The notes under the pieces were generated by a model. That model was not told the DNA's origin. It searched no databases and saw only the letters and a program-made list of their open reading frames with translations. From NCBI GenBank assembly GCA_022712855.1, contig JAFLJT010000327.1, positions 1 to 33,341 on the forward strand: 33,341 bases of DNA. Reading direction: 5' to 3'. Both the position numbers and the translations under genes were made by a program. Source of the stretch: Pseudodesulfovibrio sp. (GTDB lineage Bacteria; Desulfobacterota; Desulfovibrionia; Desulfovibrionales; Desulfovibrionaceae). Below are positions 9,599-31,550 of the stretch, piece by piece. Every line of letters starts with the position of its first letter. Within the stretch, counting starts at the first letter, position 1.

Positions 9599-9605
9599 AA
9601 CGACC

Positions 9606-11903: not shown

Positions 11904-12110
11904 ATTTTGCCTAGGTCTTGGTTGAAGGACAGATAAAACGGTAAAAAACGGGCGTACGAAACCACCCACCACATACTATCCTATTTATATTAGTATGACC
12001 TTTTCCTGAGATGCCTATTTTGTCAAGTACCAACTGGGATTTATACCAACGATCTCGACAGGTTTCGACGTTTTCCACAGGCTTGAGCTTAGAAATAGCT
12101 TGGAATGTGC

Positions 12111-14371: not shown

Positions 14372-14388
14372 GTCAATGAACCGTGCCG

Positions 14389-14919: not shown

Positions 14920-15034
14920 CATTTTCTCCACGTGTTGAACGCGCAGTATACCCCTGATAGGGGGAGCAATACAACACCAGAATTGGTTTGGATTACAATT
15001 CATTCCTGTCTCCCGAATACGGGTTCCTTCCCAC

Positions 15035-15063
15035 AGGGCCCCCTCGGGGTGCCCTTGCTTTTT
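15035..15063 (+). terminator. hairpin with T-run in the divergent promoter region (possible attenuator or sRNA end)
   Basis: A GC-rich inverted repeat (AGGGC 15035-15039 with GCCCT 15051-15055, and an inner CCC/GGG pairing) is followed by TGCTTTTTG. It sits in the 276-base gap (14920-15195) between the divergent XXXCH and iron-sulfur genes, with no gene upstream that needs a terminator. A second small inverted repeat, CCCCT-GAT-AGGGG, is at 14951-14963. It may be a leader attenuator for the gene at 15196 or the end of a small RNA. Confidence 0.35.
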
Positions 15064-15195
15064 GCTCAAACCGTAACCATCTTCTATATTGTATTTACTT
15101 TGACTTCGAGTTCAGCCTTATGTAGGACGCTCTCTTCGAGTTTGCTCTCACTTCAAATCAGGCCATAATTCAGGCCACTGGCAGCTCTATAAAAA

Positions 15196-16503
15196 ATGAA
15201 TAATACCAAAGATAAACACGACCTCACTTTTCTGGACCAATATGACTTCGGCAACTGCCTTGTCTGCGGCTCCTGCTCCAACGGCTGCCCGACTACTGGC
15301 GCACCCGGCCTTGATGGTTGGGATGCCAGAAAAGTCATGCGGATGCTCGCCAATGGATTGGTCGATGAAGTTGTCGCCTCCAATTTCCCCTGGCTCTGCA
15401 CTGGCTGTGGTCGCTGCACCAGCACCTGCCCCGGCGGTATAGACATCACCGCACTCATGGGCCACCTGAAAAAATTGCGCCCGCGTGAAGACATTCCCGG
15501 CACCCTGCACAAGGGCATGCTCAACAACCTTGAGACTGGCAACAACATGGGCATTCCCAAAAAGGACTACCTCGAAGGAATGGCCGAACTGGGTCAGGAA
15601 CTGGCCGAGGAATGCCCCGGGTTTTACGTCCCCATCAACAAGCACGATGCGGACATCCTCTTTTTTCCCAATTCCAAGGAAGTTTACGGCGACTACGAAG
15701 ACCAGTTCTGGTGGTGGAAGATTTTCTACGCCGCCAAGGAAAACTGGACCGTCCCCGGTGACAACTGGGAAGCCGTCGATTGGGCACTTTTCACAGGCAA
15801 CGATGAAGCCAACGAAGAGTTGGCCCGGCGCAAAGTCGCCTATATGAAGGAATTCGCCATCAAGCGCATGATCATGCCGGACTGCGGCGGCGGTTCCTAT
15901 GGCTGCCGCAAAGGCATGTCCAAGCTGACCAAGCAGGACCCAGAAAACGAGGTCGGCTTCCTGTACCTCTATGATTACCTCATGGAGATCATCAAGGATG
16001 GCCGCATCAAACTCGATCCATCTGTCCACGCCGGAAAGACGTTCACCTACCACGACTCCTGCAAACACGGCCGCGAACTCGCCCGCAATTACGGCAAGGG
16101 CTACTTTGATGAGCCGCGCTGGATCGTGCAGCAGTGTGTCGACAACTTTGTCGAACTCACGCCCAACCGCGAAAAAAATTACTGTTGCGGCGCTGGCGGC
16201 GGATTATGGCCCATGCCTTTTGAAGATCAGTCCGCATGGCATGCAAGGATCAAGCATCAACAGATTGAGGATAGCGGCGCAAACGTCGTCGTGGTCGGCT
16301 GCTCAAACTGCCGCGACCAGATCATGAAACGCATTCCCAAGTATTATGAGGGGTGTGGTTTCGAAGTGAAATATCTCTGGCAACTCGTGGCCGAAGCCCT
16401 CGTCATCGAACCATGGGACGCTGATGTGGCAAAAGAAAGCGAAGCCGCAGCCGCCGCACAATGGGCAGATTTGGGCATTGATCCAGATTCGATTGAATAC
16501 TAA
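15196..16503 (+). CDS. DsrK/HdrD-like (Fe-S) oxidoreductase with two [4Fe-4S] and two CCG motifs
   Basis: A 435-residue cytoplasmic iron-sulfur protein. Two ferredoxin-type clusters are bound by Cys21/24/27/31 and Cys68/71/74/78, the last of each set followed by Pro or close to it (NGCPTTG, STCPGG). Further on come two cysteine-rich CCG-type motifs: MPDCGGGSYGCRKG with HDSCKHG, and NYCCGAGGG with GCSNC. This is the HdrD/DsrK architecture, where the CCG region can bind a special [4Fe-4S] cluster that handles disulfides. The aromatic-rich stretch DQFWWWKIFY is reminiscent of DsrK. It is not inside a dsr operon; the neighbour is an alcohol dehydrogenase. The electron partner and substrate are unknown. 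The ribosome site is weak. It ends 12 bases before a strong terminator, so it is probably transcribed alone. Confidence 0.92.
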   Translation: MNNTKDKHDLTFLDQYDFGNCLVCGSCSNGCPTTGAPGLDGWDARKVMRMLANGLVDEVVASNFPWLCTGCGRCTSTCPGGIDITALMGHLKKLRPREDIPGTLHKGMLNNLETGNNMGIPKKDYLEGMAELGQELAEECPGFYVPINKHDADILFFPNSKEVYGDYEDQFWWWKIFYAAKENWTVPGDNWEAVDWALFTGNDEANEELARRKVAYMKEFAIKRMIMPDCGGGSYGCRKGMSKLTKQDPENEVGFLYLYDYLMEIIKDGRIKLDPSVHAGKTFTYHDSCKHGRELARNYGKGYFDEPRWIVQQCVDNFVELTPNREKNYCCGAGGGLWPMPFEDQSAWHARIKHQQIEDSGANVVVVGCSNCRDQIMKRIPKYYEGCGFEVKYLWQLVAEALVIEPWDADVAKESEAAAAAQWADLGIDPDSIEY

Positions 16504-16609: not shown

Positions 16610-17764
16610 ATGCACTTCGAATTCGCCACCGCTGCAAAAATAGTCTTCGGCCCCGGCACTGCCGCGTCCATACCGGACATGGCCGCAGAGTTTGGCTCCA
16701 CTGTCTGCCTTGTCACTGGCGGCTCTCCCGAACGAGCCCAATGGGTTGTGGACGCACTGGCCGAAAAACAACTTTCCACCCACGTTGTCTCCATCAGTGG
16801 AGAACCAACCACAACCATCATTGCCGACGCTGCCAACGCCGCTCGTAATGCGGAATGTGACGTGGTCATCGCCATCGGTGGCGGCAGTGTACTGGACGCA
16901 GGCAAGGCACTGGCCGCCCTGCTGACAAATACGGCAGACCTGTTCGATTACCTCGAAGTCATCGGCAAAGGGCTGCCGCTCACGGAAAAGCCCGCCCCGC
17001 TCATCGCCGTTCCCACCACTTCGGGGACCGGATCGGAAGTCACGGCCAACGCCGTGCTACTCTCCCCCGAACACGGTGTGAAGGTGAGCATGCGCTCGGC
17101 TGACATGATCCCGAATATTGCGCTTATCGATCCAGAACTGACCCTTTCCATGCCGCCCGAAGTGACCGCATCCACAGGCATGGACGCCCTCTGCCAGCTC
17201 ATAGAGGCATATGTGTCGAACAAGTCCAACCCAATGACGGATTGCATCTGCCGCGAGGGGCTTTACCGCTGCTCATGGGCGCTGAAAACAGCCTATGATG
17301 ACGGTTCCGAAATTACCGCACGCGGCGCCATGGCAATGGCCGGAATGTTCTCCGGCATCGCTCTCGCCAATGCCAAACTCGGCGCGGTCCACGGCTTTGC
17401 CGCCCCGCTTGGCGGCGAGTTCAACGCGCCTCACGGTGTGGTCTGCGCCAGCCTCCTGCCGCATGTCATGGCAATGAATATCCGCGCACTGAAAGAACGG
17501 GAACCGGATTCCCCCGCCCTCGACGCCTATACGGAAGTTGCCGCAATCCTCACCGGAGAATACGGCATTGGCGCAGAAGACGGCATCACATGGGTTCAGG
17601 AATTATGCGAAGATTTGAACATCCCCGGATTGAAAGAGATGGGCGTTAAAACAGAAGATTTCGCCGCATTGGCAGACAAAGCAGCCAAGGCCAGCAGCAT
17701 GAAAGGCAACCCTCTTAAGCTGACCAAAGCGGAATTGGTAGAGATTCTTGAACGCGCCTATTAA
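16610..17764 (+). CDS. iron-type (group III) alcohol dehydrogenase family protein
   Basis: A 384-residue cytoplasmic NAD(P)-dependent dehydrogenase of the iron-containing alcohol dehydrogenase family. Visible: IGGGSVLDAGKA (89-100) for dinucleotide binding, PTTSGTGSE (135-143), and the metal site. Metal ligands in classical members are Asp-X3-His and two later histidines. Here they read Asp192, Gln196 (GMDALCQLIEAY), His261 (AVHGFA) and His275 (APHG), so the first His is Gln. I believe a Gln occurs in a related subfamily, so this need not mean loss of activity, but metal choice could differ. AAAGGA precedes the start. It lies between terminators and is probably monocistronic. In sulfate reducers such enzymes oxidise ethanol or other short alcohols; the substrate here is not determined. 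Confidence 0.93.
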   Translation: MHFEFATAAKIVFGPGTAASIPDMAAEFGSTVCLVTGGSPERAQWVVDALAEKQLSTHVVSISGEPTTTIIADAANAARNAECDVVIAIGGGSVLDAGKALAALLTNTADLFDYLEVIGKGLPLTEKPAPLIAVPTTSGTGSEVTANAVLLSPEHGVKVSMRSADMIPNIALIDPELTLSMPPEVTASTGMDALCQLIEAYVSNKSNPMTDCICREGLYRCSWALKTAYDDGSEITARGAMAMAGMFSGIALANAKLGAVHGFAAPLGGEFNAPHGVVCASLLPHVMAMNIRALKEREPDSPALDAYTEVAAILTGEYGIGAEDGITWVQELCEDLNIPGLKEMGVKTEDFAALADKAAKASSMKGNPLKLTKAELVEILERAY

Positions 17765-19129: not shown

Positions 19130-20641
19130 CTAATCGACCCAGTCGAAGGTTCGCTCAACAGCTTTTTTCCAGCCTTTATACCCTTCAGCGCGTTCTTCTT
19201 CGGCCATGTCAGGTTGCCATGTCTTGTCCTCTTCCCAGTTGTTATACAACTCTTCGCGGCCGGACCAGAATCCCACGGCGATACCCGCCGCATAGGCCGC
19301 GCCGAGACAGGTGGTTTCCGCCACCTTGGGCCGGACCACTGGCACGTTGAGAATGTCAGACTGGAATTGCATAAGCAGCTCGTTGAAGACCATACCGCCG
19401 TCCGCTTTGAGGGACTTGAGTTCCACACCGGAGTCCTTGTTCATGGCCTCAACGATGTCCTTGGTCTGATATGCAGTCGCTTCCAGCACGGCGCGAGCGA
19501 TATGATTTCGATTAATGTACCGGGTCAAACCAACCATGGCTCCACGGGCATCGGGCCGCCAATATGGGGCGTACAGACCGGAGAATGCCGGGACGATATA
19601 CATGCCGCCTGTGTCCTCGACCTTGGCAGCCAATGCTTCGATCTCCGGCGCGGACTCGAACATCTGGAGATTATCGCGCAACCACTGCACGAGCGCACCC
19701 GCGATAGCTATAGAGCCTTCGAGACAATAGGACGGCTTACGACCACTGAACTGGTAGGCCAGCGTGGTGATCAAACCGTGCTTGGATTGGATCGGTTCAT
19801 GCCCGGTATGCATGAGCAAAAAACAACCAGTGCCATAGGTATTCTTGGCCTGACCGGGAGCAAAACATGTCTGTCCAACGAGTGCGGCCTGTTGATCGCC
19901 CACCGCGCCACAGACCGGCACACGAGCGCCGAGCGGTCCGTCTTCGGAGGTCGGTCCCCATGTCGCTTCGTCCGAGGACGGCACGATTCGCGCCAAACCC
20001 TGGGCCGGAACGCCCATGATCTTCATAATTTCTTCGTCCCATTGAAGGCTCTTCAGATCCATGAGCATGGTGCGGCTGGCATTGGTCACATCAGTGACAT
20101 GCGCCCCGCCTCTGGGACCACCTGTGAGCCACCAGATAATCCATGTTTCGATGGTGCCGAACATGGCGTCGCCCTCGTCAGAGGCCGCTTTTGCTTCGGG
20201 AACATTGTCGAGAATCCACTTGATTTTCGGGCCGGAAAAGTACGTGGCAATGGGCAGCCCTGTCTTTTCACGGAAGCGATCCTGCCCGCCGTCAGCAATG
20301 AGTTCTTTGCAAATTTCATGAGTACGAGTGCACTGCCAAACGATGGCGTTATAGAAAGGTTTACCAGTATTACGATCCCAGACCACCGTGGTTTCACGCT
20401 GGTTAGTGATGCCGATGGCGGCCAGTTCAGACCCTTTGATACCGGATTTTGTCAGCGCACCCTTGATAACTTCCTGGGTGTTCTGCCAGATTTCCATGGG
20501 ATCATGCTCGACCCAGCCCGGTTTGGGGTAAATCTGTTTATGTTCCTTCTGATCCAGCCCGACAATGCGGCCCTTCTCGTCAAAGATAATAAACCGACTG
20601 CTGGTGGTTCCCGAATCAACGGCTCCGACATATTTTGCCAT
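19130..20641 (-). CDS. glpK: glycerol kinase
   Basis: A 503-residue cytoplasmic FGGY-family kinase that phosphorylates glycerol with ATP to sn-glycerol-3-phosphate. It aligns well with E. coli Glp[31 protein letters not shown], the [12 protein letters not shown] segment with the catalytic-base Asp, [11 protein letters not shown], and the C-terminal [13 protein letters not shown]. Two differences from E. coli are seen: the N-terminal phosphate loop reads VDSGTTSSR (Ser10 for Gln), and FSGLYAPYW replaces FTGLGAPYW. ATG 20641 is chosen (AAGGAG, six bases); ATG 20644 directly precedes it. It is the last gene of the glpA operon, 54 bases after the HdrB-like gene. No glycerol facilitator (glpF) is present; uptake is by the ABC transporter across the island. 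Confidence 0.98.
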
Positions 20642-20695
20642 CATATACTCCTTATACTCTCAATCAAAATCGTCATCATTGGTTCCCGCTGTGTA

Positions 20696-21589
20696 TCACA
20701 AAGTGCGGTCCTGCAAAACGGGAACACGCCATGGGATACAATTTTTCTCCATGCCGAGCACGCTTGCATCAAGCCCCAGTGCAGTACCTATGAGTTGCGT
20801 CACAAGCACGGCAGGCGGAGCTTTACGCAACGGATCATTCAGCATGAGCCCATCCCGTTCCTTGTCAAATTGCAACTGGCAATAAGTACACGCCGTGGCG
20901 ATAATATCCGCGCCGACCGAGGCCGCGTTTTCTAATTTCTTGCGCATGAGCGATTCGGCAATGACGCCATCGCGTCCCCGCAATGGATGGCCGCAACACT
21001 CAAGGCGCAAGTCCCAGTCCACGGTTTCGGCTCCCAGCGCCGTTACCACTCTTTCGAACAAAGTCGGGGCCAAAGGGTCGTCAAAACCCGTGACATTCCC
21101 GGGCCGAAGCGCGTGACAGCCATAATGGCAGGCCACTTTTACCCCGGCCAGGGGAGTTGCGGTCTGTCTCTGGAGGAGTTCGACCCCGACCTGTTCGTCT
21201 AGAACACTCAAAAGGTGGGAAACATTGATAGATTTAGGCATGGCAAGGCCGTCCTGCGCCAAAAGTCTACCGACGAGAACTACAAGTTTTCCATCCTCGG
21301 CCAAACGTGATTCAGCGTATTTCAGATTTCCAAAACAGCATTTGCACGGTGTCAGGATAGGAAGGCCAGCTTCCTCGGCCACTGCAAAATTTCGGACCGC
21401 AGAAAAGATGGATGCCAGCTCATTGTCGTGGCGCATGGGCCAACCGCAACAATTGAATTCAAGCGGCACCAATTCTATGCCCAAAGCCGCACACACAGTT
21501 TCCACAGACTGGCCGTACTCCGGCAGATGGTGCGGGATTTTACATCCCGGAAAATAGGCGTATTTCACTGGCTTATCCATCCCTTTCAT
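20696..21589 (-). CDS. HdrB-like CCG-domain protein of the glycerol-3-phosphate oxidation module
   Basis: A 297-residue cytoplasmic protein with two copies of the HdrB cysteine motif: Cys16 / Cys47-Cys48-Gly / Cys82-X2-Cys85, and Cys158 / Cys198-Cys199-Gly / Cys234-X2-Cys237. The spacings fit the CX31-39CCX35-36CXXC rule within a residue or two. In heterodisulfide reductase this motif holds noncubane [4Fe-4S] clusters at a disulfide site; the same motif ends GlpC. ATG 21589 is used (GGGGAG site, 7 bases), overlapping the preceding gene by 17 bases, which implies coupled translation. A longer frame upstream lies wholly inside that gene and is ignored. With the preceding gene it is a split, Hdr-like equivalent of GlpC receiving electrons from GlpAB. 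Whether it also works on a disulfide is unknown. Confidence 0.92.
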   Translation of the reverse strand: MKGMDKPVKYAYFPGCKIPHHLPEYGQSVETVCAALGIELVPLEFNCCGWPMRHDNELASIFSAVRNFAVAEEAGLPILTPCKCCFGNLKYAESRLAEDGKLVVLVGRLLAQDGLAMPKSINVSHLLSVLDEQVGVELLQRQTATPLAGVKVACHYGCHALRPGNVTGFDDPLAPTLFERVVTALGAETVDWDLRLECCGHPLRGRDGVIAESLMRKKLENAASVGADIIATACTYCQLQFDKERDGLMLNDPLRKAPPAVLVTQLIGTALGLDASVLGMEKNCIPWRVPVLQDRTL

Positions 21590-23192
21590 CAGCACACTCC
21601 CCTTCGCGAAGGCGGGTGGCAACAGTGTTGCGCAGTTCATACAAGACATCGGCCACGCGGATATTCTGCGGGCAATGTTCCTGACATTTGTAGCAAGTGG
21701 TGCAGCTCCAAACCATACGCGCCCCAAGGGTTTGTTCCTTGAGTCCCATGCGTAATAAATTCATTATCTGTTGCGGCAGCAAGTCCAGATCTCTGGACGG
21801 ATCTTCGGACACGGCGACCACCGGGCAGACGCTGGTACAGGTCGTACACTGCACACAGGCCAGATACGATTCCTTGTTATCTGCCAAACCGGAAATCGGC
21901 GGGAGCGAACACTCGCCAAAGGGTGCGGCCCGCTCGGATATTTCCATCAATCGAATGGCCTGATTCGAATCGGGAGCGACCTTGCTCACCGCCTTTTTGG
22001 AAGCCATCCACAGGTCCTGAAGATTGATTCCCGATGGGCATATATCCGTGCAGCGCAGACACTCTGTACAAATGCGACTGCCCTCGGCAAAAGCTTCAAG
22101 CGCCTGGCCTGAAAGCGATGCCTCCGACTCAAATCCCTTAAGAGAGATCAGTTTTTCCGACGGCAGGATGTTCGAATTACCAAGCACCGAAAATGCCGGG
22201 CCAACACTGCAATGCAAGCTGCATTCACCGCATCGAGTGCAGGCGTCTATGCCGAGCCCTCGAATCGCTGGTGATGGAACATCGTCTTTCGCGGCATCAC
22301 GCCGTCCCAAACGGGCCATGAGATTGGCCGGAGTTGTCAGCGGATGGAAGAACTTGCCAAAAGGTAATGCGGCCAGTGCGATGAGGCAGAGTGAAATATG
22401 GAGATACCAAAACACCTCATCGGCCCTACTTCTGTTCAATGCAGGGGCCAGCGGATGCAGGGCCGAAGCCAGTGGACGGGAGATGAAAGCAGAGGTTGTG
22501 TCTGAGTGACAATCCACGCAACTGTCCTCATTCAAGGATAGGCCATTTTCAAACACATCGTCGCTGTCGGAAATTTCTTCTGGGAAAACAACGCCATATT
22601 TTTTTGCCCACACTGCTTTCAAAGCAGTGATATCGCTCCCGTCTTCAGGAATAAAGTAATCGTAAACCATGACATCGAAGACGGCAGGAGACATAATCTT
22701 GGATGCCTCCAACAGGAAGCCGGAAAGAATGATGCCGCCGACCACAAGCAGTACTGCCCAGTCCTGAAACCGTGTCAGGGAGCGCAATGAACGGAGGCGC
22801 ACCCGGCGATACACCATGAGCGCCAGCCCGATCAGGGTCATACCGCCGAACAAGTTACGCAGGAATTGCCATGGGTCCAGTGTCGATTCATAGGCCGGGA
22901 AAAATCGAGCGGTGATGGTGTCGTCCATGGCGTGGAACAATAGGAGGCCCATGAAACCGAAGAAAACGAGACAATGGGCCAGCCAGCGTATGCGTCCGGT
23001 TCGACACGTCCTGCCGAGCAAGAGAATTTCAAGGAAGAATATTTTGAGAGCGAGGAAGAGACGGCGGTGCCAGGAAAGGGATGATACAGAGACCTCTGAG
23101 GTCGGTTTTCCACACCAACGAGCCAAGCGCCGGACTATGCCGACAGCGCAGACCACAGAGGCGATAATGAAACCGATATCAAAGAAATTCAT
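21573..23192 (-). CDS. fusion: cytochrome b (NarI/HdrE-like), one c-type haem motif and four [4Fe-4S] motifs
   Basis: A 539-residue membrane redox protein. The N-terminal half has about five hydrophobic helices (about 4-22, 69-87, 111-128, 144-162, 261-280). Candidate haem b ligands His73, His87, His265 and His283 are in or beside them, as in NarI/HdrE-type cytochromes. Between the last two helices a loop of about 95 residues carries CVDCH (225-229), a c-type haem motif, presumably periplasmic. The C-terminal half is cytoplasmic, with four ferredoxin-like cysteine sets: 318/321/324/328, 375/378/381/385, 446/449/452/456 and 497/500/503/507. This is HdrC-like and apparently duplicated. It is inserted in the glp operon between glpB and the HdrB-like gene. 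The probable role is to carry electrons from GlpAB through HdrB-like and Fe-S centres to membrane quinones or periplasmic cytochromes. GGAG precedes the ATG. Confidence 0.9.
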   Translation of the reverse strand: MNFFDIGFIIASVVCAVGIVRRLARWCGKPTSEVSVSSLSWHRRLFLALKIFFLEILLLGRTCRTGRIRWLAHCLVFFGFMGLLLFHAMDDTITARFFPAYESTLDPWQFLRNLFGGMTLIGLALMVYRRVRLRSLRSLTRFQDWAVLLVVGGIILSGFLLEASKIMSPAVFDVMVYDYFIPEDGSDITALKAVWAKKYGVVFPEEISDSDDVFENGLSLNEDSCVDCHSDTTSAFISRPLASALHPLAPALNRSRADEVFWYLHISLCLIALAALPFGKFFHPLTTPANLMARLGRRDAAKDDVPSPAIRGLGIDACTRCGECSLHCSVGPAFSVLGNSNILPSEKLISLKGFESEASLSGQALEAFAEGSRICTECLRCTDICPSGINLQDLWMASKKAVSKVAPDSNQAIRLMEISERAAPFGECSLPPISGLADNKESYLACVQCTTCTSVCPVVAVSEDPSRDLDLLPQQIMNLLRMGLKEQTLGARMVWSCTTCYKCQEHCPQNIRVADVLYELRNTVATRLREGECADERDG

Positions 23193-23221
23193 ATATTTAT
23201 CTCCATACCATTTTAATCAAA

Positions 23222-24487
23222 TCAACCTTTCATCGCCTTAACCGCTTTAAATGCCGTGGCAATAGCGAGGCCCGCCCCGCACTTCATGCGCATCCAGTCC
23301 TGATGGGCAAGGATAGCCCCTGCTGCGTAGAGATTATCATGAACAGGCTGACCCGCATTGAGCGGCCGGAGTTGTTCATCAACCTCAATGCCCGCCATGT
23401 TTACCGGATGCCCTTTGTGATCGAAAAATTCATGTAAGTGCCACTCGTCCCGGTTCCCCGGCTGGACTACCGGAAGATTGAAAACTGCTTCCGATACACT
23501 GTTGCGATCTGCGCGAAGTCCCTTTCCGAAAAAACGGCCAGAAGCGAGAATAGCGGATTTGGCGTTGACCGTTGATGCTGCCGCGCCGGAACCGACGGCG
23601 AATTGAAACGAACCGTCACCCAGCTTTTCCACACCCGTTACCATTTTCTGCGAAAGCGTACGCACACCCAAGACGGGCAATCCACGGTCAAAAACCGCAC
23701 GCAAACGAGGCCCGGCAATAGATGGCGGCATGGTCGGAATCTCGAAAATGTGTTTGCCGGACAGTTCTTCCAACTGCGCAACAACTTGCTGCGGATCGTT
23801 CAACCCGAGGATGGCCGGAAATCCGACGTACTCCACGTCGTCGCAATGCGGCAGAATCTCAGCCACCAGTTTTTCACGAACAGCCGGGTCGGCCAATGCC
23901 CACGCCATGTGTTCTGGATAGAGTTCACCGCTACCACTAGGGAATTGAATCCGCACAGTTTTCAGGCCCGGCCAGTTCCGTTTGCGCGTCTCCACAAGCT
24001 GTTTGCCGCTGAATCCTTTGAGGCCGTGAAAATCAACGAACAAGGTCGGGGCTTTGCTTTCCAGTGCCAAGGTCCCCTTCCAGGCGGTTTTTGGCACACG
24101 GTAGGTCCGTTTCACTGTGCCAGCAGGCGTCAATGCGCGGCTGTTGCGCTCGGAGTGGCCCACATAATCCAGACCATTTTGAGCAAGAAAATCGGTGAAT
24201 GTATCGATGGCTTCAGCAATCTCATCCCGCTTGAGCAAAGCATATGGATGCTTTGGATAATCTTTCACGGCGGCATCAATCGCGGCCCAAGGACTGTTCC
24301 AACGCTTGCCTTCTTCCATAGGATGTACACCCATGAGATCAATAAATCCGGTGCTGAAATCGATTCCACCCGTTGCTCCGGTCTGAACAACTTTCAGCCC
24401 CTGCGCCGAGGCAAAGAGCGCGGCAGCCATGCCAGCAAACCCTGCGCCGATGACCATGACATCATATATTGTGTCGTCTTTGATCAC
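23222..24487 (-). CDS. glpB: anaerobic glycerol-3-phosphate dehydrogenase subunit B
   Basis: A 421-residue flavoprotein close in length to E. coli GlpB (419). The N-terminal dinucleotide motif VMVIGAGFAGMAAALFA (10-26) is followed by GGIDFSTGFIDLMG; the C-terminus has the second flavin-binding segment NLYAAGAILAHQDW. Family role: the GlpB subunit of the anaerobic GlpABC dehydrogenase, working with catalytic GlpA. The start is GTG 24487, placed directly after the glpA stop codon (TAAGTG) with GAGGAT inside the end of glpA, so the two subunits are translationally coupled. Its normal third partner GlpC is replaced here by the cytochrome/Fe-S fusion and the HdrB-like protein. Confidence 0.95.
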   Translation of the reverse strand: MIKDDTIYDVMVIGAGFAGMAAALFASAQGLKVVQTGATGGIDFSTGFIDLMGVHPMEEGKRWNSPWAAIDAAVKDYPKHPYALLKRDEIAEAIDTFTDFLAQNGLDYVGHSERNSRALTPAGTVKRTYRVPKTAWKGTLALESKAPTLFVDFHGLKGFSGKQLVETRKRNWPGLKTVRIQFPSGSGELYPEHMAWALADPAVREKLVAEILPHCDDVEYVGFPAILGLNDPQQVVAQLEELSGKHIFEIPTMPPSIAGPRLRAVFDRGLPVLGVRTLSQKMVTGVEKLGDGSFQFAVGSGAAASTVNAKSAILASGRFFGKGLRADRNSVSEAVFNLPVVQPGNRDEWHLHEFFDHKGHPVNMAGIEVDEQLRPLNAGQPVHDNLYAAGAILAHQDWMRMKCGAGLAIATAFKAVKAMKG

Positions 24488-26077
24488 TTACGCATCCTCG
24501 CAGGTAAAATCGTCGTCATCATCGTCATGCAATTCCAGATCGAGAGCACCGCAGTAAAGCGCCTCTTGCAGATCAGCCTGCACCATGGGTAATCCCCAAA
24601 GAATAGGTGAAAATCCGCGCCAACGTCTGCCGACGAACGATTGTAATTCTTCAATGCCCTTGGCTTCGGAAACATACCCTTCATCATAGAGATGTCCGGT
24701 AATCCGCAGCCCGCAGAAGCCGCCCTGACACGGGCCTTTACCGACGCGACTACGCATCCCGATGGCCTTGAGTATAGAATTACCGTGCATGCCGCCCATG
24801 TTTTCAACAATGGCATTAATGGCATTGCGCGACACCATCTCGCATTCGCAGAGGATAAGATCATCAGCGTCACGGTTCTGAATCCACGACTTAGGCCCAA
24901 GGCCCGGCTCGGTCCAGCGCCCCATGGTGGACGGCGGCAACGGCTCGGTGCGCGTGGTGCACTTGGCATCCACACCGAGTTTGGCGCAGACCATGTCCGC
25001 TGTTCGCTCGGCCATGAGTCGATAGGTCGTCAGCTTGCCACCAGTGATGGTGATGAAGTTGTCCACATCGTCACGAGCATGGTCAATGAGCGAGAAATTT
25101 CGGCTGACGTTCCGCGCATCACCGCTGTCGCCAAGCAGCACGAGCGGTCGCACACCTGCATAGGCGCGGATATAGCGAGTGGTGTCCAACACTGGAATCA
25201 TGGCGCGGGCGTCTTCGATAATAGAATTAGTCTCAGCCACCGAAGGCCTACAAAGATCAGGAGAATCAATGGTCACCGAGGTCGTTCCGAGCACGGAAAC
25301 CGTACCGCCGGGAACAAGAATGTCTGAGTCTGCCGCTTTGCGAAGTCGGTTAACCACACGTTTGGTGATACGATCCTGAGTGATGAGAAGGCTGCCGGAA
25401 GAATACAAAATATTGATATGCGCCCCGGCCAGTGCGGCGACGATACCCGCCCAAGCGCCTGTAGCGTTGACCACGATCTCGGCCTCCACAGCAAACTGTT
25501 CACCTGTGGTTTGGTCGAGGAAGGTTGAACGTTGTATACGTCCATTATCCTTTGAAAAATCTATAAGTTTGGCATTCCTGAGATACTGTCCACCCAAGGC
25601 GACGGATTGGGCCAGATTATCCAGCGAGAGCATGAACGGATCGACCGCCCCATCTTCAACACTATAGGCAGCAATGAGCTTGTCGGACAGGACCGGCTCC
25701 AGCTCCCTGGCTTCACGGATATCAATCTCATGAGCAGGGACGTCGCTGGCATCGCACATACTCTGAAAGTCAGCGATGTACTTTTCATCATCACCTTCCA
25801 CAGCCACGAACAAACCGCCCGTATCTTCAATACATTGCGGCGCGAGCTTTTTGAGAATGGCACCCTCTTCGCGGCACTCAATTGCGGATTCGGCATCGGA
25901 CGCAACATACCGCGCCCCACTGTGCAGCAGGCCGTGATTGCCGCCGGATGCTCCGGCATTGATATCTCGGCGTTCGGCCAAAAGGCATGGGATTCCCCGC
26001 AAGGCAAGGTCGCGCGCCAAGCCTGTGCCGGTGGCACCGCCACCGAGAATGAGAATCCTGGTTTCTATCACTTTCAT
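24488..26077 (-). CDS. glpA: anaerobic glycerol-3-phosphate dehydrogenase subunit A (FAD, with BFD [2Fe-2S] domain)
   Basis: A 529-residue catalytic subunit that oxidises sn-glycerol-3-phosphate to dihydroxyacetone phosphate. The FAD Rossmann motif LILGGGATGTGLARD is at residues 9-23. GASGGNHGLLHSGARY follows (42-57), and YAGVRPL and ITGGKLTTYR (344-353) are typical of the GlpA/GlpD family. The C-terminus has a BFD-type [2Fe-2S] domain with Cys410, Cys412, Cys450 and Cys455, present in GlpA but not GlpD. The tail contains six consecutive Asp residues (518-523) and ends FTCEDA, which is unusual. AAGGAT precedes the ATG. It is the first gene of the minus-strand glp operon and divergent from glpR. 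Confidence 0.97.
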   Translation of the reverse strand: MKVIETRILILGGGATGTGLARDLALRGIPCLLAERRDINAGASGGNHGLLHSGARYVASDAESAIECREEGAILKKLAPQCIEDTGGLFVAVEGDDEKYIADFQSMCDASDVPAHEIDIREARELEPVLSDKLIAAYSVEDGAVDPFMLSLDNLAQSVALGGQYLRNAKLIDFSKDNGRIQRSTFLDQTTGEQFAVEAEIVVNATGAWAGIVAALAGAHINILYSSGSLLITQDRITKRVVNRLRKAADSDILVPGGTVSVLGTTSVTIDSPDLCRPSVAETNSIIEDARAMIPVLDTTRYIRAYAGVRPLVLLGDSGDARNVSRNFSLIDHARDDVDNFITITGGKLTTYRLMAERTADMVCAKLGVDAKCTTRTEPLPPSTMGRWTEPGLGPKSWIQNRDADDLILCECEMVSRNAINAIVENMGGMHGNSILKAIGMRSRVGKGPCQGGFCGLRITGHLYDEGYVSEAKGIEELQSFVGRRWRGFSPILWGLPMVQADLQEALYCGALDLELHDDDDDDFTCEDA

Positions 26078-26331: not shown

Positions 26332-27141
26332 ATGACAGGACGAGTCACTAAAAAAACAGCAGAAGAAGGCGGCAAACACGCTTCTGTCCGCATTCGTCAC
26401 GGCAAGATAGTCAATCTTGCCCGCGAACAAGGATTTGTTGCTATCGGCACTCTGGCCGAAACTTTTGAGGTCACACCACAGACCATCCGCAGAGACATAA
26501 ACATCCTTTGCAAGCAGGGATTGCTCCAACGCCACCACGGCGGAGCCGGCCCCATGCTCAGTACGGAAAACGTCGACTACACCGACCGCAAAATCCTCTG
26601 CCTGCGCGAAAAACAGATCATCGCAAAACTGGTAGCCCAGCACATCCCGCCCCGATCATCTCTCTTCATTAACATGGGTACAACCACCGAGGCCGTCGCC
26701 AAGGAACTTGTACACCATGACCGCCTCAGAGTTATCACGAACAACCTCAATGTCGCAAAAACTCTCAGTGGTAACAGTGAGATGGAAATAATTATCACTG
26801 GCGGAATGGTCCGTCACAAAGACTGCGGAATCGTCGGAGAAGCGGCCATTGATTTCATTCGACAATTCAAAGTGGATTACGGGATCATCGGTATCAGCGG
26901 TGTGGATATGGACGGAACACTTCTCGATTTTGATTACCGCGAAGTGACCGCAGCCCGCTCGATCATGGAAAATTCTCGCAAAGTTTTCCTGGTCACTGAC
27001 CACACCAAGTTCGGCAGGAACGCCATGGTCAGACTCGGCAGCATTGAAGAGATCGACGCCATGTTCACCAACAAGATGCCACCACCCGAACTGGTTGAGG
27101 CATTGAAGCATAATAACGTTGAACTGCACGTAGCAGAATGA
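26332..27141 (+). CDS. glpR: DeoR-family transcriptional regulator, probable glycerol regulon repressor
   Basis: A 269-residue DeoR-family repressor. The N-terminal winged helix (about 22-75) has LAETFEVTPQTIRRDINIL followed by RHHGGA, the family's recognition segment. The sensor domain (about 90-255) has the sugar-phosphate isomerase-like fold with INMGTTTEAVA, VITNNLNVA, IITGGMVRHKD and GISGVDMDGTLLDFD. E. coli GlpR responds to glycerol-3-phosphate; the location between the two glp arms supports the same here. GAGGAT precedes the ATG. It is divergent from glpA and 148 bases before glpS. The first 20 residues are a charged extension beyond the usual DeoR start. Confidence 0.93.
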   Translation: MTGRVTKKTAEEGGKHASVRIRHGKIVNLAREQGFVAIGTLAETFEVTPQTIRRDINILCKQGLLQRHHGGAGPMLSTENVDYTDRKILCLREKQIIAKLVAQHIPPRSSLFINMGTTTEAVAKELVHHDRLRVITNNLNVAKTLSGNSEMEIIITGGMVRHKDCGIVGEAAIDFIRQFKVDYGIIGISGVDMDGTLLDFDYREVTAARSIMENSRKVFLVTDHTKFGRNAMVRLGSIEEIDAMFTNKMPPPELVEALKHNNVELHVAE

Positions 27142-27289: not shown

Positions 27290-28369
27290 ATGAGTTTAAA
27301 ACTCAAAGACATCAATAAATTGGTAGGACAAGATGTCCACCTCAAAGACATCAATCTGGAGTTTGAATCCAGTTCTCGCTACGTGATCCTTGGCCGGACA
27401 CTGGCGGGAAAGACGTCTCTTTTACGCATCATGGCAGGCCTTGATCGTCCCACGACCGGAACAATCACCGCCGATGGCGTGGATGTGACCGGCGTGTCCG
27501 TACGCAAGCGCAGCATCGCCATGGTGTATCAACAATTTATCAACTACCCCTCGCAGACCATCTACGAGAACATCGCCTCACCCTTGAAAATCCAGGGCCT
27601 TAAAAAGGCGGAGATCAGAGCCAAGGTGATGGAAGCGGCGTCAATGCTGCACATCGAGCATCTCCTGGACAGACTGCCAGCCGAATTATCGGGTGGTCAG
27701 CAACAGCGCACGGCCATTGCCAGAGCGCTGGTCAAGGATGTGGACCTGCTTCTGCTCGACGAACCGCTGGTTAACCTCGACTACAAGCTGCGCGAAGAGC
27801 TTCGTGACGAGTTGCAAAAGATTTTCATCGAGCGCGATTCGGTCGTTGTCTACACCACCACCGAACCGACGGAAGCCCTCATGCTTGGTGGCAACGTCAT
27901 CGTCATGCACGAAGGCCGTATTCTCCAAATCGGGGAAACAGCCGATGTCTACCAGAACCCGGCCACCACGCAGGTTGCCGAGGTCTTCAGCGATCCGCCC
28001 ATCAACTTCATGCATGGAGCTATCGCTGTTGGAAAGGTGACCATGGACAGTGGTTTCGGGTTTGAAGCAACTGCAAGGATGAACGACCTCGGCCCGGGTG
28101 AATACACCTTCGGCATTCGCTCAAACCAGCTCAGCATAAGCAGCGATAATGACGAGAATGCACGCCTCACAGGCACTGTTGCACTGTCGGAAATCAATGG
28201 TTCTGAAACATTTATCCACTTCAAACATGATGACGAAACGATCGTTGTTCAGGACGACGGTGTCCACATGCATGAGGTCGGAACCGAGGTGCACGTCTAT
28301 GTTCACCCCAGTAATTTTTACGTGTTCAACAAGGCGGGCGAGCTTCTTATCTCGCCGCACAATGACTAG
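27290..28369 (+). CDS. glpS: glycerol ABC transporter ATP-binding subunit GlpS (no H-loop His)
   Basis: A 359-residue cytoplasmic ATPase of the MalK-like, TOBE-containing class. The Walker A position reads GRTLAGKT (35-42, Leu38 in place of the usual Gly). Q-loop Gln81/82, an intact signature LSGGQ (133-137) and Walker B LLLLDE (153-158) are present. The H-loop His is replaced by Thr191 (YTTTEPTEA). Residues after about 235 form the regulatory TOBE domain. It pairs with GlpT, whose defects are complementary. GGGAGAG precedes the ATG. It is the first gene of glpSTPQ-DUF2160-glpV, the order known from the Rhizobium glycerol transporter. Confidence 0.93.
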   Translation: MSLKLKDINKLVGQDVHLKDINLEFESSSRYVILGRTLAGKTSLLRIMAGLDRPTTGTITADGVDVTGVSVRKRSIAMVYQQFINYPSQTIYENIASPLKIQGLKKAEIRAKVMEAASMLHIEHLLDRLPAELSGGQQQRTAIARALVKDVDLLLLDEPLVNLDYKLREELRDELQKIFIERDSVVVYTTTEPTEALMLGGNVIVMHEGRILQIGETADVYQNPATTQVAEVFSDPPINFMHGAIAVGKVTMDSGFGFEATARMNDLGPGEYTFGIRSNQLSISSDNDENARLTGTVALSEINGSETFIHFKHDDETIVVQDDGVHMHEVGTEVHVYVHPSNFYVFNKAGELLISPHND

Positions 28370-28380
28370 CCGGAGATCAC

Positions 28381-29466
28381 ATGGCGCGTATTGAACTCAA
28401 CGAAATCAAGCACAGCTACCATCCCAATCCGACGGATGATGAAGACTTCGCTCTGAAGCGTATTCACACGGTATGGGAAGATGGCGGTGCCTATGCACTT
28501 CTTGGCCCCTCAGGCTGCGGGAAAACGACAATGCTGAATATCATTTCAGGCTTGCTCAAACCCTCGCACGGGAGCATCAGTTATGATGATACCGATGTTT
28601 CAGCCATGCAGCCGGAAGATCGGAATATCGCCCAGGTTTTCCAGTTCCCGGTTTTGTATGACACGATGACTGTCTATCAAAACCTCGCTTTCCCGCTCAA
28701 AAACCGGGGCGTTGCCAAAGCGGACATCGACAAGCGTGTTGATGAAATCGCCGAGGCGCTGGACCTGAAACAGGACCTCCACAAGCGTGCTTCCGGACTT
28801 TCCGCAGACGCAAAACAGAAAATATCCCTTGGCCGAGGCCTGGTCAGAAGTGACGTCGCCGCCATCCTTTTTGATGAGCCGCTGACCGTCATCGACCCCC
28901 ACCTCAAGTGGGACCTGCGCCGCAAACTCAAGGAAATCCACAAAGAATTCAAGCTGACCATGATTTACGTCACCCATGATCAGGTGGAGGCAATGACCTT
29001 CGCCGACCAGATTGTGGTCATGTATGAAGGTGAGATCGTTCAGACAGGCACCCCTGAGGAACTGTTTGAGACTCCCGAACATACATTCGTCGGCTACTTC
29101 ATAGGCAGCCCCGGCATGAACTTCCTCGAATGCACGGTGGATGGCGCACTGGCTCTGGTGGGTGGCGAGACTATCCCCATCATCCCGTCGTATGCCGATA
29201 AGGCCATGCGCGCGGGTGGCAAGCTCAAGATCGGCATTCGGCCCATGTATGTCGGCCTTCATGCCGAAGCAGTTGAAGACGGTATTGCCGCTGAAGTTAT
29301 CAATATCGAAGATCAAGGGTTCTGCAAAATTGTCACTGCAAAGTTCGGCGACAATGCGATCAAAGCTCGAATCAAAGACGACCGAAGCATTCCTGATGGC
29401 AAATGTTGGCTGACCTTCCCGCCGGAGAAGACAAAGCTCTACTGCGACGAAAGACTGGTCAAGTAA
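28381..29466 (+). CDS. glpT: glycerol ABC transporter ATP-binding subunit GlpT (degenerate signature)
   Basis: A 361-residue MalK-like ATPase. Walker A GPSGCGKT (42-49), Q-loop Gln88, Walker B AILFDE (161-166) and H-loop His199 (VTHDQVEAM) are intact. The ABC signature reads LSADA (140-144) with KQK following, instead of LSGGQQQR. A TOBE domain follows from about residue 235. In the GlpS-GlpT pair the GlpT Walker A/B and His would meet the intact GlpS signature and form one good ATP site; the opposite site would be degenerate. GGAG precedes the ATG, 11 bases after glpS. It should not be confused with the unrelated E. coli glycerol-3-phosphate antiporter that shares the name. Confidence 0.93.
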   Translation: MARIELNEIKHSYHPNPTDDEDFALKRIHTVWEDGGAYALLGPSGCGKTTMLNIISGLLKPSHGSISYDDTDVSAMQPEDRNIAQVFQFPVLYDTMTVYQNLAFPLKNRGVAKADIDKRVDEIAEALDLKQDLHKRASGLSADAKQKISLGRGLVRSDVAAILFDEPLTVIDPHLKWDLRRKLKEIHKEFKLTMIYVTHDQVEAMTFADQIVVMYEGEIVQTGTPEELFETPEHTFVGYFIGSPGMNFLECTVDGALALVGGETIPIIPSYADKAMRAGGKLKIGIRPMYVGLHAEAVEDGIAAEVINIEDQGFCKIVTAKFGDNAIKARIKDDRSIPDGKCWLTFPPEKTKLYCDERLVK

Positions 29467-29478
29467 CGGGAGGCTATA

Positions 29479-30351
29479 ATGAGTAAATGGGAAAATAATA
29501 GAGCATGGTTTTTCATCCTCCCGGTCTTTGTCATCGTGGCATTCAGCGCAATCATTCCGCTGATGACCGTTGTGAACTACTCGGTGCAGGATATTTTCGG
29601 CCCCGGCCAGCGATTCTTCGTCGGCCTCGAATGGTTTAGGGAAGTTTTACTGGATACCCGACTGCATGACGCCCTGTGGCGACAGTTGACATTTTCGGGA
29701 TTGGTTCTGCTTATCGAGATGCCACTGGGCGTCGCCATAGCACTCACAATGCCGAAAAAGGGCTGGGCATCGTCTTTATGTCTGGTCATTCTGGCACTGC
29801 CGCTCCTTATACCCTGGAACGTCATCGGGACAATCTGGATAATTTTCACCAGGCCGGATATCGGCCTGATGGGTTCGCTGATCAACAGTGCCGGAATCTC
29901 GTTTGATCACACTGCCAACGCCTTTGACGCATGGACAACGCTCATGCTCATGGAAGTTTGGCACTGGACGCCACTGGTTGTCCTTCTCGCCTTTGCTGGT
30001 CTTCGGGCCATCCCGGAAGCCTACTATCAGGCGGCCAAAATCGATGGCGCATCACCATGGGCCATCTTCCGATACATCCAGTTGCCAAAGATGCGTGGCG
30101 TCTTGACCATCGCCTTGCTGCTTAGGTTCATGGACAGCTTCCTGATTTATGCCGAGCCTTTTGTACTCACAGGTGGCGGCCCTGGTAACGCAACGACATT
30201 CCTTTCAATTTATCTCGTGAAGATAGCTGTCGGCCAGTTCGATCTCGGCCCGGCTGCGGCATTCTCGCTCATATACTTCCTCATCATCCTGTTGTTCTGC
30301 TGGTTATTCTATCAAGCACTCCAGGCAGTCGAAGGAGGAGAAAAATCATGA
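29479..30351 (+). CDS. glpP: glycerol ABC transporter permease GlpP
   Basis: A 290-residue inner-membrane permease of the MalF/UgpA type with about six membrane helices. The EAA loop that contacts the ATPase is at about 180-203 (EAYYQAAKIDGASPWAIF). VLTGGGPGNATTFLSIY is the typical post-loop segment of sugar/polyol permeases. GGGAGG precedes the ATG, 12 bases after glpT. Its stop overlaps the start of glpQ (ATGA), so the two permeases are coupled and presumably form the heterodimeric channel. Confidence 0.95.
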   Translation: MSKWENNRAWFFILPVFVIVAFSAIIPLMTVVNYSVQDIFGPGQRFFVGLEWFREVLLDTRLHDALWRQLTFSGLVLLIEMPLGVAIALTMPKKGWASSLCLVILALPLLIPWNVIGTIWIIFTRPDIGLMGSLINSAGISFDHTANAFDAWTTLMLMEVWHWTPLVVLLAFAGLRAIPEAYYQAAKIDGASPWAIFRYIQLPKMRGVLTIALLLRFMDSFLIYAEPFVLTGGGPGNATTFLSIYLVKIAVGQFDLGPAAAFSLIYFLIILLFCWLFYQALQAVEGGEKS

Positions 30352-31151
30352 TTATACGCAAAAGAACCATTGCACTGATTATCTATCTGGGCCTGTTATT
30401 CCTGCCCATTTACTGGATGCTCAACATGTCGCTCCGCACCAATGCGGATATCATGAATGTATTCGCCTGGTATCCGAGCGATCCCACCTTTGCCAACTAC
30501 ATGAAGATCTTCACCGATCCGTCGTGGTACAATGGATATATCAACTCGATCATCTACGTAACGATGAACACGGGTATATCCTTGCTGGTCGCGCTCCCTG
30601 CGGCGTATGCTTTCTCACGATACCGTTTTATCGGTGACAAACATGTCTTCTTCTGGCTGCTGACCAACCGCATGGCCCCGCCTGCTGTTTTCCTGCTGCC
30701 CTTCTTCCAGTTGTATTCGACATTCGGCCTGATCGATACCCACATCGCGGTCGCGCTGGCGCATTGCCTGTTCAACGTCCCGCTGTCGGTCTGGATTCTC
30801 GAAGGATTCATGGGCGGCATTCCCAAGGAGATAGATGAAACGGCCTTCATTGACGGGTACAGCTTCCCGCGCTTCTTTATCCGAGTCTTCATCCCGCTTA
30901 TTCGTGCAGGTATCGGCGTCACCGCGTTCTTCTGTTTCATGTTCAGCTGGGTGGAACTCCTCCTCGCACGGACACTGACGACCACGGCTGCCAAGCCCAT
31001 CGCGGCGACCATGACACGCACAGTAAGTGCCACCGGACTGGACTGGGGCCTGCTGGCCGCTGCCGGTATCCTGACCATCGTCCCCGGCGCACTGGTCATC
31101 TACTTTGTCCGTAACAACCTCGCCAAGGGCTTTGCCCTGGGTCGAGTCTAA
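30348..31151 (+). CDS. glpQ: glycerol ABC transporter permease GlpQ
   Basis: A 267-residue inner-membrane permease of the MalG/UgpE type with about six helices. The EAA loop is at about 161-184 (EIDETAFIDGYSFPRFFIRV). The ATG overlaps the glpP stop by four bases, and a GGAGGAG ribosome site lies inside the end of glpP. It forms the second half of the membrane channel. It is not the glycerophosphodiester phosphodiesterase that E. coli calls GlpQ. Confidence 0.95.
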   Translation: MIIRKRTIALIIYLGLLFLPIYWMLNMSLRTNADIMNVFAWYPSDPTFANYMKIFTDPSWYNGYINSIIYVTMNTGISLLVALPAAYAFSRYRFIGDKHVFFWLLTNRMAPPAVFLLPFFQLYSTFGLIDTHIAVALAHCLFNVPLSVWILEGFMGGIPKEIDETAFIDGYSFPRFFIRVFIPLIRAGIGVTAFFCFMFSWVELLLARTLTTTAAKPIAATMTRTVSATGLDWGLLAAAGILTIVPGALVIYFVRNNLAKGFALGRV

Positions 31152-31169
31152 TCGAGCGAGGAGAAAGAT

Positions 31170-31448
31170 ATGAATCTTGAATGGATGGCATGGACACCGG
31201 TCACAGCCGGGTTCTTCATCACCATCGCCCTTATCCTCATCGGAATGACAATATGGGAGATCAAATCCCCGTGTGTGGCGCGACGAGGCTTATTGCCCCT
31301 GATCACAACTCGCGGAGATCGTCTTTTCATCGGACTGCTCGGAAGTGCGTACATCCACCTGTCATGGGTGGGGCTGACAGACTTCCCCTTATGGATTGCA
31401 ACGGTAATATCCGTCTGTTTTCTCACTGCTCTCATGCGTTGGGGATAG
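31170..31448 (+). CDS. small membrane protein, DUF2160 family
   Basis: A 92-residue hydrophobic protein with three predicted membrane helices (about 11-31, 52-70 and 72-91) joined by a charged loop (KSPCVARRG ... TTRGDR). I recognise it as DUF2160, which accompanies glpSTPQV-type glycerol importers. GAGGAG precedes the ATG, 18 bases after glpQ. Its role is unproven; an accessory transporter subunit is a reasonable guess because it sits between the permeases and the binding protein. Confidence 0.9.
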   Translation: MNLEWMAWTPVTAGFFITIALILIGMTIWEIKSPCVARRGLLPLITTRGDRLFIGLLGSAYIHLSWVGLTDFPLWIATVISVCFLTALMRWG

Positions 31449-31550
31449 CCCTGATCTGAGAGTTCCCGAACTGGGAATTGAGAAAACAACGGTCTGTTTT
31501 ACAGTACTAGAGGTTGAGGTGTTTTTTTTAATCAGCATGCGGAGGTACGT

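Follow-up and report, generated by a model that had tools for sequence, protein, structure and literature searches.

GlpC is usually counted as part of the enzyme in the GlpABC type of glycerol-3-phosphate (G3P) dehydrogenase. How electrons from lactate or G3P are fed into sulfate reduction or H2 formation in the Desulfovibrionaceae is an old open question. The subject of this text is a five-gene locus on a Pseudodesulfovibrio contig (JAFLJT010000327.1; the whole stretch of 33,341 nucleotides is called the window), in which glpA and glpB are followed by a gene for a fusion of a cytochrome b with iron–sulfur (Fe-S) motifs, a gene for an HdrB-like protein, and glpK. The window, contig 35, comes from a draft genome of 3.85 Mb with a completeness of 87.7%, and the fusion encoded on it has its closest named relatives in Pseudodesulfovibrio. 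We consider it rather likely that the five genes form one glycerol catabolic unit, of which the dehydrogenase acts as a membrane-bound G3P:menaquinone oxidoreductase.

The G3P dehydrogenase types listed in the available part of PMC11962113 are GlpABC, GlpA-SdhBCD, GlpA-CoxG, GlpD, GlpO and GlpTk; as far as that part extends, HdrB and heterodisulfide are absent from its main text. Another described system is EtfD, the ETF:menaquinone oxidoreductase from M. smegmatis (9ojn), which has been proposed from cryo-electron microscopy to be a wire leading from a flavoprotein via CCG clusters, cubanes and one haem b to menaquinone (PMC13083937, available part). The likeness to the window locus lies in the five-helix cytochrome b, two cubanes, two CCG-domain clusters and the wire from flavoprotein to menaquinone. 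However, the CCG sites of EtfD are in the same chain, whereas here they lie on the separate HdrB-like protein and are complete as in Hdr. Moreover, EtfD has two haem-b histidines, compared to four candidates here plus a predicted haem c and an extra Fe-S pair, and its donor is ETF rather than GlpAB; no ETF gene was found among the operon genes scanned with Pfam and NCBIfam. Compared to E. coli GlpABC, GlpA and GlpB of the window are true members and both halves of GlpC have matches, in the C-terminus of the fusion and in the HdrB-like protein, but a GlpC gene is missing. In addition, CxxC is present in the second but not in the first CCG site of E. coli GlpC, whereas the window protein has it in the first site as well. 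Methanogen HdrABC shares homologous HdrB (6e-45) and HdrC (9.7e-13) parts and the ten HdrB cysteines; the window locus differs in lacking HdrA and in having the HdrC-like part fused behind a cytochrome b and an Fe-S pair. Lastly, the QmoC profile NF038018 finds the cytochrome b part with 78.4 bits (best stretch 4–177), although this is far below the cut-off of 300, the domain order is reversed compared to QmoABC, and there is no QmoAB at the window locus.

The cluster itself has been annotated already. In the legend of a supplementary figure from 2024, the genes between glpK and glpBA are labeled hbrBCA, "heterodisulfide reductase-like protein" (PMC11505543). According to the available part of this source, and by description alone, the clusters of P. 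methanolicus 5S69T and Desulfomicrobium baculatum have the same gene set; strain 5S69T grows on glycerol with sulfate, and homologous glycerol clusters occur in six of 15 Pseudodesulfovibrio type strains. In that part, haems, clusters, the loss of GlpC and the mechanism are not analyzed (PMC11505543), and a functional analysis of the module was not found in the papers searched.

The membrane fusion and its HdrB-like partner

The run glpA-glpB-fusion-hdrB-glpK occupies positions 26077–19130 on the minus strand. glpA (24488–26077, minus strand, 529 amino acids) encodes the flavin adenine dinucleotide (FAD)-containing subunit of G3P dehydrogenase; the protein passes TIGR03377 (562.2 bits, cut-off 552.8) and is 40% identical to E. 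coli GlpA. Its C-terminal CxC...CxxxxC cysteines are common to E. coli GlpA and probably hold a [2Fe-2S] cluster in a site that we take to be BFD-like. A BFD [2Fe-2S] domain had been proposed in the first-pass annotation; the cysteines are indeed there, but Pfam lists no BFD-type domain in GlpA at E 0.001. The flavoprotein subunit GlpB (23222–24487, minus strand, 421 amino acids, GTG start) exceeds the cut-off of NF003725 (591.8 against 345 bits), and no solved structure matches it at 1e-4. The stop of glpA and the start of glpB abut as TAAGTG. Then follow the fusion (21573–23192, minus strand, 539 amino acids), consisting of a NarI-type cytochrome b, a haem-c loop and four [4Fe-4S] motifs (PF02665 and Fer4 domains), and the HdrB-like protein (20696–21589, minus strand, 297 amino acids from ATG). 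The mechanical open reading frame (ORF) of the latter extends to 21727 with a TTG start; the ATG at 21589 overlaps the 3′ end of the fusion gene (21573) by 17 bases. Both the overlap and the TAAGTG coupling read as first annotated. The glycerol kinase gene glpK (19130–20644, minus strand) closes the run (NF000756, 775.7 bits against a cut-off of 498).

Residues 1–290 of the fusion (22323–23192, minus strand) make up the membrane domain, with H73, H87, H265 and H283 as candidate ligands of haem b. Its PF02665 (Nitrate_red_gam) match passes the gathering threshold (26.5 against 22.9 bits). The first pair of [4Fe-4S] motifs spans residues 316–390 (22023–22247, minus strand), with Fer4_7 at 318–389. 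The second pair, at residues 439–526 (21615–21878, minus strand), resembles HdrC and the N-terminal part of GlpC, as seen with TIGR03290, with PDB HdrC (9.7e-13, or 3.6e-17 using a profile) and in the alignment with GlpC. The full profiles of QmoC, HdrC and GlpC match the fusion partially and all below their cut-offs, TIGR03290 for instance giving 63.5 bits against 160; the EtfD profile match is weak (0.0018).

Hydropathy peaks are found at residues 2–20, 71–89, 110–128, 138–156 and 260–278, with a weaker one at 42–60; a further peak at 444–462, inside the Fe-S part, is presumably false. The loops 21–41, 61–70 and 129–137 are basic, and loop 157–259 is acidic (18 acidic against seven basic residues). 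The latter contains the haem-c motif CVDCH (residues 225–229; 22506–22520, minus strand), before the last membrane helix. Because of this charge pattern, the CxxCH loop probably faces the periplasm. It is predicted to carry a covalent haem c. Cytochrome c domain profiles match the stretch weakly (best E 0.083).

The ligands were followed in an alignment of 69 fusion rows, of which 26 are linked to glp genes (the window and one duplicate included) and 43 are not. L062, whose fusion is identical to that of L050, is counted in this alignment but left out of the fusion tree; L048, with broken frames at a contig end, is left out of the conservation count but kept in the tree. H73, H87, H265 and H283 are invariant in all 69 rows, and so are C225, C228 and H229 of the CxxCH motif. 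From the 16 cluster cysteines, 15 are invariant as well, the exception being C381, which is Gly in two of the 43 rows without glp linkage. The earlier count of one CxxCH and four CxxCxxCx3C motifs is correct. Chance or mis-assembly was rejected as the source of the fusion, given that these ligands are found again across the 69 aligned rows. M175 is likewise invariant in the aligned rows and may be the sixth ligand of haem c. By the topology, and with the haem-ligand pairing of NarI, H73 and H283 would form a pair on the cytoplasmic side and H87 and H265 one on the periplasmic side, which would give two stacked b haems.

The HdrB-like protein fails the cut-off of TIGR03288 (175.8 against 345.15 bits) and matches the HdrB structures 9sfi_C (6.1e-45) and 5odc_B (1.2e-37). 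It has two complete CCG sites, formed by C16, C47, C48, C82 and C85 and by C158, C198, C199, C234 and C237, and all ten cysteines align with those of methanogen 9sfi_C and 5odc_B, with C85 and C237 corresponding to the bridging Cys81 and Cys234 of 5odc_B. All 25 glp-linked rows retain both of them; at C16, 23 have the cysteine and two show a gap. Among the other rows, C85 is found in 39/41 and C237 in 27/41, with Ser or Thr in 12. According to the available part of PMC13083937, the bridging cysteines equivalent to C85 and C237 are displaced on substrate binding in methanogen HdrB, and EtfD departs at both sites, with His583 completing the D2 cluster and Thr539 replacing the D1 cysteine. This raises the possibility that the HdrB-like protein reduces or oxidizes a disulfide or trisulfide, for example on DsrC, thereby linking G3P, menaquinone and a thiol carrier. 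The completeness of both sites, including the two bridging cysteines, is consistent with such a role, and so is the presence of C237 in every glp-linked row compared to its replacement in 12 of the 41 others. However, complete sites are not sufficient: GlpC of E. coli also retains CxxC in its second site, although to our knowledge it has no disulfide role. Moreover, the five genes include no thiol-carrier gene, and the protein also matches SdhE, a quinol enzyme subunit (160 bits). We therefore regard this function as improbable.

GlpC counterparts and two GlpAB lineages

Residues 2–80 of E. coli GlpC align with residues 439–521 of the fusion (1e-9), and its CCG half aligns with the HdrB-like protein (37.5 bits with the GlpC profile and 1e-6 with BLASTP, a much weaker match than that to HdrB). 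The counterparts of the two GlpC halves therefore lie on separate proteins, to which a membrane and Fe-S module has been added: judged by homology, GlpC is not missing as a type of protein but has been divided and enlarged. The claim that an Hdr-like module stands "instead of GlpC" thus holds for the gene, which is missing, but not for its parts, as homologous counterparts of both halves are present.

A canonical GlpC encoded elsewhere in the genome, on whose absence the first-pass annotation had made its proposal depend, was sought in 17 genomes, i.e., 15 with a glp-linked fusion, including that of the window, and two controls with a classical GlpC. The controls were both positive, and none of the 15 contains a GlpC over the cut-off. 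The best GlpC-like matches in the window genome lie on contig 157 and reach 169 bits against a cut-off of 278; comparable matches below the cut-off occur in each of the 17 genomes. At 87.7% completeness, the negative result for the window genome does not fully exclude the gene. A hidden GlpC is rejected as far as this incompleteness permits, the 14 other genomes being negative as well.

The fusion was found in 16 of 149 genomes of a family sample (E up to 1e-20) and in 50 of 395 genomes of a phylum sample (E up to 1e-30), the window genome being counted in both, and at 13 loci of public collections, including Pseudodesulfovibrio, Halodesulfovibrio, Desulfomicrobium, Desulfatitalea, Desulfatibia and Syntrophobacteraceae. 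The contexts of 69 loci (13 on public contigs, 16 belonging to the family sample and a selection of 40 among the places in the phylum sample) were read with a simple ORF caller and best BLAST hits. An HdrB-like gene adjoins the fusion in 67 of them, the exceptions being L103 and L111. The five-gene order, which the first-pass annotation had suggested looking for in other sulfate reducers, is complete in 22 of the 25 distinct glp-linked loci besides the window; contig ends truncate L045 and L048, and L047 has no adjacent glpK. The glp-linked fusions form one clade (26 rows, support 100/99). Conserved order, overlapping genes, a single fusion clade and the lack of GlpC in 15/15 genomes together bear out the proposal that GlpAB and the Hdr-related membrane module are one unit.

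The module is not specific to glycerol. Nine neighbors, hand-picked from the 43 loci without glp linkage, were scanned with NCBIfam: for five (L067, L118, L124, L126 and L128) HdrA2 is the best match, below its cut-off, and the others match AprA (L128, where one cut-off is passed), formate dehydrogenase (L122), HmcF/TmcB (L111) and GltA (L095). In L067, L068, L128 and L129, HdrA-like and AprA-like flavoproteins are encoded close to the fusion and HdrB, and a protein of about 110–130 amino acids lies in between. Possibly this arrangement, in which AprA itself was scanned in L128 only, is a variant of the module resembling adenosine 5′-phosphosulfate (APS) reductase.

GlpB was also followed outside the fusion loci. 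From the 112 places fetched (47 in the family sample and 65 in the phylum sample), 99 were parsed; the 13 unparsed ones comprise 11 with E. coli-type GlpA and GlpC, L269 with nothing and L299 with GlpA only, and the fragment G261:C453 was left out. Taking "beside" as the next one or two genes, GlpC lies beside E. coli-type GlpA in 60 of 64 loci (contig end in three, other in one), compared to none of the 30 loci with window-type GlpA. The latter have a TmcB/HmcF-like gene next to them (five) or divergent from them (six), HdrA (one), a contig end (one) or none of these partners (17). No GlpA was called in five parsed loci (GlpC in two, other in three). Three genomes, G008, G011 and G052, hold both types, with E. 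coli-type GlpAB and GlpC at L206, L285 and L284, respectively. In a GlpA and GlpB tree of 78 rows, made with a quick method, the window-lineage rows without GlpC fall in one group of 54 rows, with a Shimodaira–Hasegawa-like approximate likelihood ratio test (SH-aLRT) value of 100; for this tree, only every third locus of the GlpC group was taken, and rows with GlpA of ≤400 or GlpB of ≤300 amino acids were omitted. This phylum hence harbors a GlpAB lineage without an adjacent GlpC gene. Fusion linkage needs four changes on the tree and was therefore gained or lost more than once. The 17 partnerless loci would fit a module that is a mere neighbor, with the electrons of GlpAB going elsewhere. Against this stand the 17-base overlap, the five-gene order in 22/25 loci and the single glp-linked fusion clade, which make a purely accidental neighborhood very unlikely.

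Two further features were seen among these GlpAB loci. At L196, L197, L198, L200, L279, L280 and L281, the TmcB/HmcF-like gene is split by a TGA at one and the same place (TE[TGA]GH). All seven split genes among the 11 TmcB/HmcF-GlpAB loci have this TGA, L203 has Cys there, and the codon is a probable selenocysteine at a CCG-site cysteine. In L206, L207, L284–L287, L290, L297 and L299, GlpA and GlpB are apparently one frame of about 1000 amino acids, beside which GlpC was called in all except L299.

Proposed electron path and possible acceptors

From the genes, ligands, conservation, linkage and lack of GlpC read in the sequences, we infer a complex with the following cofactors, electron path and acceptor. 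GlpA and GlpB would oxidize G3P at FAD. The electrons would then pass, probably via the C-terminal cysteine site of GlpA, to the HdrB clusters and those in the HdrC-like part of the fusion, and subsequently through the extra Fe-S pair of the fusion and haem b to menaquinone, much as has been proposed for EtfD with ETF as the donor. The predicted periplasmic haem c and the second haem-b pair may extend this path to a wire across the whole membrane, which could exchange electrons with periplasmic cytochromes c. This appearance is caused by the four candidate haem-b histidines and the predicted periplasmic haem c, unlike in EtfD.

A membrane-bound G3P:menaquinone oxidoreductase of this kind is favored by the conserved order, the one glp-linked clade, the absence of GlpC in 15/15 genomes and the invariant His and Cys ligands, and also by the 30 of 30 further window-type GlpA loci without GlpC beside them. 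It additionally agrees with the fold similarity to EtfD, NarI and HdrC together with the HdrB match (6e-45), and with the EtfD wire to menaquinone, the growth of 5S69T on glycerol with sulfate and the cytochrome c3-family matches in the window genome, which number 14 on six contigs. The potential of G3P is about −190 mV. With menaquinone at −74 mV (PMC10734219, available part), electron transfer to this acceptor would be downhill.

Several observations weigh against menaquinone reduction by such a complex. Firstly, an AlphaFold model of the fusion is weak overall, with a predicted local distance difference test (pLDDT) score of 59.7 and a predicted template modeling (pTM) score of 0.51, being better across most of residues 70–270. 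For this weak model, Foldseek gives no match under E 0.001; its top fifteen are HdrC (best 0.015) and NarI (best 0.055). A second aligner ranks M. smegmatis EtfD (9ojn) first, with Z 13.1, 255 residues and a root-mean-square deviation of 5.0, followed by NarI (Z 11.2) and HdrC (Z 10.0), all for the same low-confidence model; for helical models, its notes recommend care with Z scores under about 13. Secondly, EtfD has one haem b. Thirdly, no QmoC and no full-length DsrK over the cut-off were found in the incomplete window genome, so that a route from menaquinol to sulfate lacks sequence support in this genome. A DsrK-like fragment of 245 bits does start at base 37 of contig 283, and two HdrA-like frames of 447 and 733 amino acids, below cut-off, lie near the start of contig 360; the latter may belong to QmoAB, and together they suggest genes lost at contig ends. 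Fourthly, GlpAB may work without the module, as in 17 of the 30 window-type loci outside the fusion loci neither GlpC nor a TmcB-like protein, HdrA or the fusion is encoded next to it. Lastly, genome G279 has GlpAB-glpK (L216) and the fusion with HdrB (L095) on different contigs. The L095 fusion, encoded beside a GltA-like protein, is placed next to the glp-linked clade in the tree; possibly, the module serves GlpAB in trans in this genome.

The main output could also be the periplasmic cytochrome c3 pool, with electrons driven over both b haems to haem c by the membrane potential, so that G3P electrons are pushed to lower-potential c3 and to hydrogenases or formate dehydrogenases. The CxxCH motif and the four histidines are invariant in 69/69 rows, which means that the wire stays complete irrespective of the partner in the cytoplasm, and cytochrome c3-type matches are present in the genome. 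In HotSeep-1, a complex of haem c, CCG and HdrA parts has been proposed that would carry the electrons of cytochromes c to either DsrC or ferredoxin (PMC10553843, available part). On the other hand, the kinship with EtfD and NarI points to a quinone. Given the potentials of cytochromes c3, the electrons would moreover have to be raised by at least about 100 mV in the absence of a membrane potential. Altogether, cytochrome c3 as the main output seems possible but unlikely.

Energy-coupled splitting of electrons had been suggested in the first-pass annotation as well. HdrBC parts are common to the bifurcating HdrABC, and an HdrA-like pair is present elsewhere in the window genome (contig 360). 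With five HdrA-like queries, matches of more than 100 bits were found within the fetched stretch in 18 of the 43 fusion loci without glp linkage, but in none of the glp-linked stretches, which number 26 with the window included. Moreover, G3P at about −190 mV and menaquinone at −74 mV as the high-potential acceptor leave nothing below about −310 mV. Flavin-based bifurcation at this complex is thus extremely improbable, and the suggestion is not upheld. A better candidate for a bifurcating G3P dehydrogenase is the relative L215 (4120–13012, genome G229). Its GlpAB genes are followed by a 1039-amino-acid HdrA2-like protein (below cut-off), then by a stretch that we take to be MvhD-like, running through an in-frame TGA (GUHLGDCHY), likely a selenocysteine, into an HdrCB/GlpC-like protein, and by glpK in pieces. 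The arrangement occurs once among the 30 window-type loci, and such a GlpB is present in one of five genomes of its order.

Besides menaquinone reduction as such, GlpAB of the lineage without an adjacent GlpC might plug into a portable wire, consisting of HdrB, four cubanes, two b haems and haem c, other loci of which have HdrA-like proteins nearby. The complex would then be a junction at which G3P and menaquinone meet the periplasmic pool of cytochromes c and a disulfide carrier of the cytoplasm, an idea that we put forward tentatively. If true, the junction would allow G3P electrons to be driven outwards, or electrons from the periplasm to be fed in, by the membrane potential. The operon offers a defined and selectable case, with one substrate, an invariant wire and parts that could react with quinone, cytochrome or disulfide and can be mutated singly.

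Neighboring genes in the window

A regulator gene and transporter genes complete a glycerol cluster around the five genes. The regulator, of the DeoR/GlpR family, is divergent from glpA (26332–27141, plus strand; PF00455 and PF08220) and stays just under the cut-off of PRK10906 (318.6 against 331 bits). Downstream lie genes for an Ugp-like ATP-binding cassette (ABC) transporter (27290–33278, plus strand), identified in Pfam and NCBIfam scans as two ATPases, two permeases and a binding protein; the substrate is probably glycerol or glycerol-3-phosphate. A transporter set in a like position has been named glpSTPQUV (PMC11505543, available part).

About 2.6 kb from glpK, at 15196–16503 on the plus strand, is a gene for an HmcF/TmcB/DsrK-like CCG protein, below the cut-offs, which is adjoined by a gene resembling iron-containing alcohol dehydrogenases (16610–17764). 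Possibly these two form a further electron-transfer module. The window additionally contains GAK-system CofD-like and XXXCH-domain proteins (13217–15069, minus strand; over the cut-offs of TIGR04357 and TIGR04358), and a type I secretion ABC transporter with an HlyD-type adaptor (8270–11972, minus strand), both over cut-off.

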